A DNA stretch of 64,000 bases from Daphnia pulex (lineage: Eukaryota > Arthropoda > Branchiopoda > Diplostraca > Daphniidae), in NCBI RefSeq assembly GCF_021134715.1, contig NC_060019.1, forward strand, positions 11,422,001 to 11,486,000, in the 5' to 3' direction. The notes below the pieces were generated by a model. It worked only from the letters and a program-made list of their open reading frames with translations, ran no database searches and was not told the DNA's origin. The position numbers and the translations under genes were made by a program. Below are positions 24,701 through 29,371 of this stretch, in pieces. Numbering within the stretch: position 1 is the first letter of the stretch; each line of letters opens with the position of its first letter.

Positions 24701-27700
24701 CATTAGATCTACTCAGGGCCAAAAGGAAAAAAATCTAGCCCAAGCGGTTCAAGAGTTATTGCATTTGTTCTAGGACACGTAGTGCCATAAGAATGCATTG
24801 AAAATAGGGGGGTGTACCTAATAGTTTGGTGGGTACTGTATATTTGATGCTACTACTATACCTCGTCTATTTTTCTCGTAATAATCTTTTTACTTATACT
24901 TTTTATACTCTACTCATCTTTGCCGAGCTCTCTCGTTCTTCTTCCATTCATTTTCATTTTTCTCATCCGCATTTTGAAATATTGATTGCAATTAATCCTC
25001 TCGCGCCTCCCGGTCTACACACACTCGAAAAATCCTTGTGCGTCAGACTTCTTCTTCTTCTTCCTTTTTTTATTTTTAAATTTTTACGAGGATTGCTAAC
25101 GACTGTCTATACAACTCCGCCCCGACTCTTTATATCTCTTCCTGACTCATACACACTCACTGGCTCCTCCTCTTTGCTCACATTTTCGGTGATGGATGTC
25201 TCTCATCTTCTCTAAGACTAAGAGAGGAAAACAATTCCTTTTGGCCAGCGGAGCATGATCCTTTATACCCATCCCAAAATCCTCCTCCCATTTTTTTTTC
25301 TTTCTTTCTCCTTTTCCTGAGCTGTCACTTCTTGTGTTGACATTATTCCCCCCTTCTCTGTTACGTTGATCATTGTCTCTCGGGAAATTTTAACCGGACG
25401 AAACCCGATAATGGGTAGGATCGAGATGCTAGCCTGGATGGGTTTTTGATTCCTCCGGGGTTGTGTAACAGGAGACGGATAGGCGCCGGACAAGACACAA
25501 GTCGACGATCGTTCCGATGGACACTGTGACGCTCACATTTTATTTATTTTTTTTTTTTCAAAGGAAATCAAATGACATTGGGAGGAACGAGTCACGTGCT
25601 CGTCGAGCTACTGCTCATACACATTTTGGCTTCACCTGATGAATGTCAAATCGATTGCGATGGCGGGCTGGGTTGTTTTTTCTTCTTTTTTGCCTAGGGA
25701 AAGGTTACGTGCGTGTGTCAGTCAGTGAGTCTTTTTTCCTATTTTTTTTTATTTTGCCGAGAAAATCAATTGGATTGTGACAGGCTCGGCAACTCGAATG
25801 TAGCGCTCGACATTTACCCGATACCTTTCACCTTTCGTGTGTCCAATTTCTCGACTGCCCTTAACATCCGATTTCCGCCAACAGTCCCGACTGACAAGCG
25901 TAGTAGCCAAGAGAGAAACTGGGCAGCAGCAGCAGCAGCTTCTCTCCTCTCTCCTCTCACTAGAGCCACTTTGGCCGTCGTCTCCGGTTGACAAGTGGAC
26001 TCATGGTCTATACGCAAGTACGCCATTTATTGGATCTTGAGCGACTTGCCAGTCAAAACTCGTGTGTCCAGTTGTCCGATCCAATTAGCGGGATTGACGC
26101 GACGAGTAAAGGGGCGAAGGAAACGGCACACAGTGGCCGGCAGGTCTGGCTCAACTCGTCAAAAAGAAAAAGGTCCCGGCCAACCAATGGGGAAACAAAA
26201 CAGTGGCTCATGAGAAAATATATCCATATCATATCATATTATAAATATTATACGTGTGTGTATATATGCAGAGTTTGCAGGAGAGAGAACTCGTCTGAAT
26301 AATTGCCTGGTCCGTCTCTCTCTCTCTCTGTGTGTGTGTATTGTGTGTCTCTTTTGTGTCGGTGCGGGCCGGCGCATCGGCGTGTGTGTACAGCAACTGA
26401 TGCACGCCATCGCCATGGTGCACAAGATGCAACGGTTGGCGCTCTCCTCGTCGTCCATGATTCCGGCCGCCATCCAGGAGGAGAAGGAAGAAGCGGCGGC
26501 CAATGCCAAGGCCGGCGTCGAGTCCAGCAGCACTCTCAACCATAGAGAGGAGCAGCAGCTCGACGCTATCGATATCGACCCTTCCTCGTCGACCGCAGCT
26601 TCTTCTGCGGCCGCTTCTTCTTCTACCGCTCCGGCTGGCGTTCCCGTGGCGCCGGGTTCATCGATCGCCGACGGTTCCACCGCCGATCCCATGGATCTCT
26701 AAAGTCCGTCCGGCCATTTCTGAAATAACAAAAGAAAAACAAAAGAACTGCTGGTTATTTCCGCCTCGCTTTTTTATCACCACTCTTCTTTCTTTTTTCA
26801 TTTTCATTTTTTTATTTTTTTACCGATCCTCGTCCGACATGGGTCCGTTTCGATTGAATGGCCCATGTTTTCTTTTTCTTTTCTTTCTTTTTTTTGTTTC
26901 TCCAATCTTCTTACAAATCGACGCTGGCACTTCGAGAAACGGACGTCCGAGCTGACATGTGCGTGTTTGGGACTTGACTTCATCTTGAAGTCCGTCTCTC
27001 TTTTTTTTTTCTGTCTTTTATTTTTATTTTTGCTCTTGTCTTTTGTCCGTTTGTCGGTTCAGAGATTGTTGCGGACCAATCTCGTGCCGCCCGTTCTAAA
27101 CGTTCCTAGTAGAAGAGCCAAAAACAAAAACGCAATGGTGTCGCCTTTGTTTCTTTTCGATTAGTTGAGCATGTTACATTCAATGTGTACAGCCACCGTT
27201 TAATGTTAGAAAACACGAAATGGCCACTAGGCAGTTTTTCCGTGTTATTGACACACACCGACACACTGTGTGCGCGCCTCACAATGACCTCCACAAAAAA
27301 AATTTAGGCCGTCCGTTCATTTAGTTTTTTTCCCGTTCGGATATTCTATGTGTGTGTGTGTATTTTTAGTCTTTAGGTGGTATGCCGGTCACATTTATTT
27401 CACCATTTTTTGGTTCTATTTCCGTTGATTGTCGACAAATCCTCTGGGGGTTCGGGTTGATATCTATTCGTGTCGCCGACAAGTTTGGCCAAATGATTCT
27501 TGAAACGGAGGGCAATGTCTGACAACCAGAATCACGACGGTGGGAGAACAAACAAAAAAGTGGTTTTTTTCCCGATACCATGTTCTAACCCAAATATTAT
27601 ATTCCATCCCGGCCGAGTCGATAAAGGGGGATGTGTGACTCAAGCTAGACGAGAGAGACGCACGGGTCGTTTAGTCCGCGCAGGCGCCGTCCAACTCTTG

Positions 27701-29371: not shown

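Follow-up and report, generated by a model that had tools for sequence, protein, structure and literature searches.

Analysis of a 64-kb stretch of genomic DNA (C3:11422001-11486000, hereafter the window) pointed to a gene that is probably an animal CaMKI with two alternative 3′ coding exons, a proximal exon A and a distal exon B. In the proposed scheme, the phase-0 end of exon 8 would have two alternative splice partners, A (26394) and B (29186). The two resulting mRNAs would encode the identical kinase domain, autoinhibitory helix, and Trp anchor, and would diverge from the equivalent of Gln305 onward. B would supply the standard CaMKI ending, and A would supply a diverged copy of it with an acidic tail of 85 residues rich in Ser and Ala. 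From the sequence, we infer that A is spliced in and that it originated by duplication of B. The positions of the features are listed in Table 1.

Table 1. Features of the predicted CaMKI gene, numbered from the first nucleotide of the window. The features given for exon 8 are based on alignment to CaMKI structures.
Feature	Position	Strand	Remarks
CaMKI coding exon 1 (from ATG)	12725..12852	+	open joined frame, GT donor
CaMKI exon 2	13894..14028	+	AG acceptor, GT donor, in frame
CaMKI exon 3	18949..19023	+	in joined frame
CaMKI exon 4	21246..21384	+	in joined frame
CaMKI exon 5	22221..22344	+	in joined frame
CaMKI exon 6	22468..22608	+	in joined frame
CaMKI exon 7	23394..23520	+	in joined frame
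CaMKI exon 8, common to both forms	23726..23813	+	autoinhibitory helix and Trp anchor (position 1); phase-0 end, SRWR/gtacgt
AG-free 104-nt stretch before the acceptor of A	26288..26391	+	CU repeat and UG repeat
Exon A, proximal alternative 3′ exon (predicted)	26394..26702	+	102 aa and TAA; 17-aa second half of calmodulin segment, 85-aa Ser/Ala-rich acidic tail
Exon B, distal conserved 3′ exon	29186..29371	+	61 aa and TAG; second half of calmodulin segment, 44-aa tail
Two AATAAA hexamers	29613..29625 (29613, 29620)	+	first AATAAA/ATTAAA past either stop

The joined-exon translation showed that exons 1 to 8 are continuous in one frame that stays open over 319 codons; a GT donor follows each of them, and an AG acceptor precedes each of exons 2 to 8. 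When the product of this core and exon B (core+B) was compared with PDB chains, the best matches were CaMK1D, CaMK1, and CaMK1G (E 8e-150 for human CaMK1D and 5.7e-148 for rat CaMKI), and CaMKIV and DCLK1 ranked behind. Pfam Pkinase was found in core+B with E 3.4e-82. The autoinhibitory and calmodulin-binding segment followed right behind the kinase domain, and it aligned without gaps (SVSEQ...MRHL) to rat CaMKI and CaMK1D. As the original prediction had proposed, the gene is therefore a CaMKI, its kinase domain matching CaMKI best among the solved CaM kinases. In the searched genome (133.2 Mb, 13 contigs), it was the sole CaMKI-like gene among the best 108 of 404 candidates; of the 102 matches at E <= 1e-6, those outside this gene showed 58% identity to the query at most, and no retrocopy revealing a splice form was found among them.

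Exons A and B are each preceded by AG, open with CAA (Gln), carry their own stop codon, and lie in the same phase behind the exon 8 donor. Re-reading of the exon limits bore out the predicted coordinates, phase 0, and Gln start of both exons, since the last codon of exon 8 is complete at 23813. Both exons join exon 8 in frame, in agreement with the proposal of one catalytic core with two phase-compatible 3′ coding exons, and the predicted kinases are 421 aa (core+A) and 380 aa (core+B) long. Each of the two exons gave one genome match at E <= 0.001; no second copy of A was found in the genome, where the next best match had E 0.35. Searches for relatives of A returned 40 pattern stretches in viral contigs and 549 in prokaryotic genome contigs, none of which was confirmed, as is expected for an animal exon. 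The end of exon 8 together with B likewise gave 76 pattern stretches in viral contigs, with none confirmed.

Next, we analyzed the ungapped likeness between the 17-residue segments that open A and B, which had been predicted to be homologous. The two segments are identical at 6 of 17 positions with a BLOSUM62 score of 30, which was reached by 55 of 200,000 permutations of A. Similar values were obtained for A against rat CaMKI (score 31, 7/17 identical; 24 of 200,000 permutations) and against human CaMK1D (score 30, 7/17; 65 of 200,000). Against C. elegans CMK-1, whose segment was taken from primers published in the part of PMC8635976 consulted, with one residue inferred, A scored 27 with 6/17 identical (69 of 100,000 permutations) and B scored 50 with 11/17. 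B itself is identical at 12 of 17 positions both to rat CaMKI and to human CaMK1D, so that the earlier description of B as near-identical to the vertebrate sequence was overstated.

The segments also stood out among open windows. With rat CaMKI as the reference, B scored 58 and A ranked second with 31 among the 57,971 open 17-codon windows in the six frames of the window, followed by a score of 24. In 200 kb sampled at 20 fixed sites in other parts of the genome, the score of A was reached by 0 (rat CaMKI), 1 (CaMK1D), and 3 (B) of 176,996 windows, and by none of the 9,857 windows preceded by AG. At the DNA level, the first 51 nt of A and B are identical at 28 positions, a value reached by none of 20,000 base shuffles; a shared constraint at the level of the motif could contribute to both the DNA and the protein similarity. 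When the 16 residues at the end of exon 8 were joined to A, they matched rat CaMKI with E 1.5e-5 and no gap across the junction, and the end of exon 8 plus B gave a best E of 7.8e-11, exon 8 contributing part of the score in both cases. The predicted homology was thus above chance by permutation, by window ranking, and by the 200-kb control. Judged by these comparisons, A and B are homologous, which is the relation found between exons duplicated in tandem.

We then examined the signals for splice choice and 3′ ends. The acceptor tract of A contains 8 pyrimidines in 16 positions, the weakest of the nine acceptors, followed by B with 9 and by exons 2 to 8 with 11 or 12. The weak acceptors of A and B are compatible with regulated use and equally with non-use. 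A single CTRA branch-point-like match was present in the 130 nt 5′ of A, at −99. The CU and UG repeats before A belong to classes that are bound by known splicing regulators. The AG-free stretch carrying them was considered as a distinctive feature and was rejected, because exon 8 (113 nt) and B (116 nt) are preceded by similar stretches and 16 of 697 intron AG gaps reach at least 100 nt. TGCATG was rarer than expected by chance in the window (15 versus 28), with the copies nearest to A at 21348 and 29638, and a search of 23814-30000 against Rfam returned nothing at gathering score.

When 13 poly(A)-type hexamers were tried, neither AATAAA nor ATTAAA was present in the 2,483 nt between the stop of A and B, and A may accordingly be a proximal acceptor that uses the poly(A) site of B. 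It is quite possible, though somewhat short of an even chance, that A is the proximal acceptor of one long terminal exon, with a 3′UTR of ~2.9 kb that contains B and with a common poly(A) site. Besides the lack of the two hexamers until 29613 and 29620, a splice exit from A is not obvious, the best donor-like site in 26394-29185 scoring 7/9 (at 26959) and all others 6 or less. This count uses a crude consensus, however, by which two of the gene's eight real donors score just 6, and the absence of the two hexamers from 2.5 kb may be a matter of chance. Moreover, weaker hexamers (AAGAAA, GATAAA, and CATAAA twice; sites 26732, 27620, 28388, and 28595) are present between the stop of A and B. A may thus end at a weak signal of its own as a separate terminal exon, or it may be the proximal acceptor of a long exon; the encoded proteins are identical either way. 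Of the predicted terminal-exon duplication, the duplication fits the homology, but a separate terminal exon does not follow from it, since A could equally be a proximal acceptor.

The reading of A as one of two alternative coding endings was further assessed by codon usage. Two antisense frames of 142 and 154 codons are open over exon A (26229-26698), one scoring 0.16 bits per codon; they are probably a by-product of the GC-rich codons of A. Because these frames are also open, openness was not counted as evidence, and a codon log-odds score was used instead, for which 2,113 codons from the genome's other kinase matches served as the training set. On this scale, the CaMKI core reached 0.26 bits per codon, exon B 0.38, and exon A 0.29, with 0.24 for the tail of A alone. 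In a first test, 566 overlapping open 102-codon intron windows all stayed below A (maximum, −0.06), the background codons having been taken from the introns under test. When the background was drawn from one set of introns and the other set was tested, A scored 0.26 and 0.38, and no window out of 148 and 418, respectively, reached it. The 60 codons 5′ of the acceptor of A are open but scored −0.45 bits per codon, and the 60 codons past its stop scored −0.44 and −0.49. The coding signal set in ~36 nt 5′ of the acceptor of A and ~33 nt 5′ of that of B. Base shuffles of A left 317 of 5,000 sequences open and none as high-scoring. The GC content of A is 62%, compared with a maximum of 56% among 1,246 intron windows of 306 nt, and base composition accounts for part of the coding score of A. 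Searching exon A against Pfam gave no match below E 0.37.

The ranking of A among open windows, the control with AG-preceded frames, and the kinase-like codon usage together make it very likely that A is a genuine coding exon. We consider it unlikely that A is an old duplicate that is now unspliced or spliced only at noise level. Such a remnant would fit the pyrimidine tract of A, which is poorer than at the other eight acceptors, and the difference from rat CaMKI at 10 of 17 positions. However, an unused exon would be expected to decay, and A retains an intact frame of 102 codons with coding-type composition and the spacing of the motif, without coding signal before its acceptor or past its stop.

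The calmodulin motif follows an anchor rule of positions 1 and 14. In the alignment to rat CaMKI, Trp303 and all residues before it are encoded by the shared exon 8, and the exchange starts exactly at Gln305. In human CaMKI, the autoinhibitory segment covers residues 286-307 and the calmodulin segment residues 303-316, and Gln305 bonds with Ser291 and Lys295 of the autoinhibitory helix, according to the part of PMC3447817 consulted. Nearly the whole autoinhibitory segment (human 286-304 of 286-307) is thus supplied by the shared exon. The importance of the Trp for calmodulin binding is described for W305S in the sections used of PMC8635976. The original prediction assigned separate calmodulin-binding segments to A and B; this holds for the second half of the segment, but the Trp anchor and the autoinhibitory helix are in the shared exon 8. 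In the accessible text of PMC10174685, the major nuclear export signal of CMK-1 (residues 288-294) adjoins the calmodulin-binding domain. Its position would fall in the shared exon, and A and B should not differ there.

Within the exchanged half, both A and B retain Gln305, Met14 (counted from the Trp), and the Leu-x-Leu end. The net charge of AKSRWR plus the 17 residues is +5 for A, +5 for B, and +6 for rat CaMKI, and the helical hydrophobic moments are 0.34, 0.24, and 0.16, respectively. Counting the Trp as 1, A differs from B by Tyr5 to Met (Phe in rat), Asn6 to His, Thr8 to Ile, Val10 to Met, and Arg12 to His, among others. Core+A shows the features of CaMKI, namely Trp at position 1, Met at position 14, Gln305, and basic charge. 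The tail of A, of 85 residues, contains 18 Ser, 18 Ala, 13 acidic, and 3 basic residues, and that of B, of 44 residues, contains 6 acidic and 5 basic ones. The aligned segment and the 18 Ser and 18 Ala agree with the earlier statement that A keeps the hydrophobic spacing and then runs into a Ser/Ala-rich tail.

As Gln305, Met14, and the charge of +5 are kept, A is expected still to bind calmodulin. We expect Ca2+/calmodulin to activate both kinases, core+A and core+B, and core+A to differ from core+B in its affinity, basal activity, or targeting. For a human CaMKI-delta kinase construct, calmodulin binding at ~5-13 nM follows from conversion of the two constants given in PMC2910593. The predicted difference in Ca2+/calmodulin sensitivity is possible, and no great loss of binding is anticipated for A. 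The functional claim is plausible if it is restricted to the tail and to the latter half of the calmodulin segment. It seems rather improbable that core+A binds calmodulin poorly or not at all, acting as a dominant-negative or calcium-independent form. The substitutions at positions 5, 6, 8, and 12 would speak for such a loss, but A retains the Trp and Met14, matches B in charge, and has the higher hydrophobic moment. Calmodulin also tolerates wide variation among its targets, which counts against poor binding.

Chance likeness to B in an unrelated open frame is very improbable and was rejected on the permutation and window tests, the 200-kb control, and the coding signal: although the likeness spans just 17 residues and one and three windows elsewhere match the score of A for two of the three references, A lies on the right strand, in the right phase, and immediately behind an AG, at most ~0.002 such frames would be expected among the 120 plus-strand AG-preceded open frames of the intron at the rates of the 200-kb control, and the coding signal of A is an independent line.

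Other features of the window were also recorded. The intron before A contains a near-perfect palindrome of 903 bp (23939-24841), with arms of ~425 nt that are 99% complementary and a spacer of 52 nt. It ends in CAGTACC/GGTACTG with TA adjoining. Its arm gave at least 76 genome matches (among the best 40 of 135 candidates), most of which were nearly complete and 95-100% identical; many were arranged as opposed pairs. By these sequence features, the palindrome is a member of a young palindromic DNA-transposon-like family. Two frames at 171-772 matched Pfam SARAF with E 8e-7, just under the curated cut-off, and 4e-12. SARAF is a regulator of store-operated calcium entry, and its frames and CaMKI were observed in the same 64-kb window. 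Frames matching Sec1 (4093-4524, E 5.7e-20) and NTP_transferase (6093-6293, E 1.5e-10) probably represent exons of two additional genes.

If both endings are in use, regulatory variety would come from a single gene through the choice of its last exon. Four CaMKI genes are present in humans, as stated in the part of PMC6469190 consulted. We tentatively propose, as a possibility that we consider less probable than its opposite, that the splice choice acts as a calcium-decoder switch, in which a duplicated half-exon would set the Ca2+/calmodulin threshold and the targeting tail by cell or stage in a lineage with a single CaMKI, compared with the four of vertebrates. If both are used, the pair would also be a natural experiment in which the same kinase and the same autoinhibitory helix carry two second halves of the calmodulin helix. 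The residues that set calmodulin sensitivity, and the variation of crustacean calcium decoding by tissue and stage, would then become directly testable.

In the comparison with CaMKI of other animals (human CAMK1, CAMK1D, and CAMK1G; C. elegans CMK-1), the regulatory segment aligns without gaps to the solved CaMKI chains, and B is the family-standard ending. To our knowledge, no CaMKI gene has been described in which two homologous 3′ exons offer alternative versions of the calmodulin segment's second half, and a literature search among open-licence papers found no paper on this exon pair. Some isoforms of PNCK (CaMKI-beta) differ at the C-terminus. Splice isoforms of PNCK vary by cell type and stage (PMC6469190, in the part consulted), and in this they resemble the CaMKI forms proposed here. 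PNCK differs in being a vertebrate paralogue, and a second PNCK paper had no word starting with "splice" in the text examined (PMC10249896). Drosophila CaMKI is named among the CaM-kinase genes in connection with alternative splicing specific to DN1 clock neurons in the sections seen of PMC6025963, where the event is unstated and may be unrelated to 3′ exons. In the portion of another Drosophila CaMKI paper that we consulted (PMC12467204), no CaMKI splice isoforms were mentioned. A further parallel is offered by splice site C of the plasma-membrane calcium pump (PMCA), where alternative splicing alters a C-terminal regulatory tail, as would be the case here. PMCA is a pump rather than a kinase, and its exons are arranged differently from the A and B pair.
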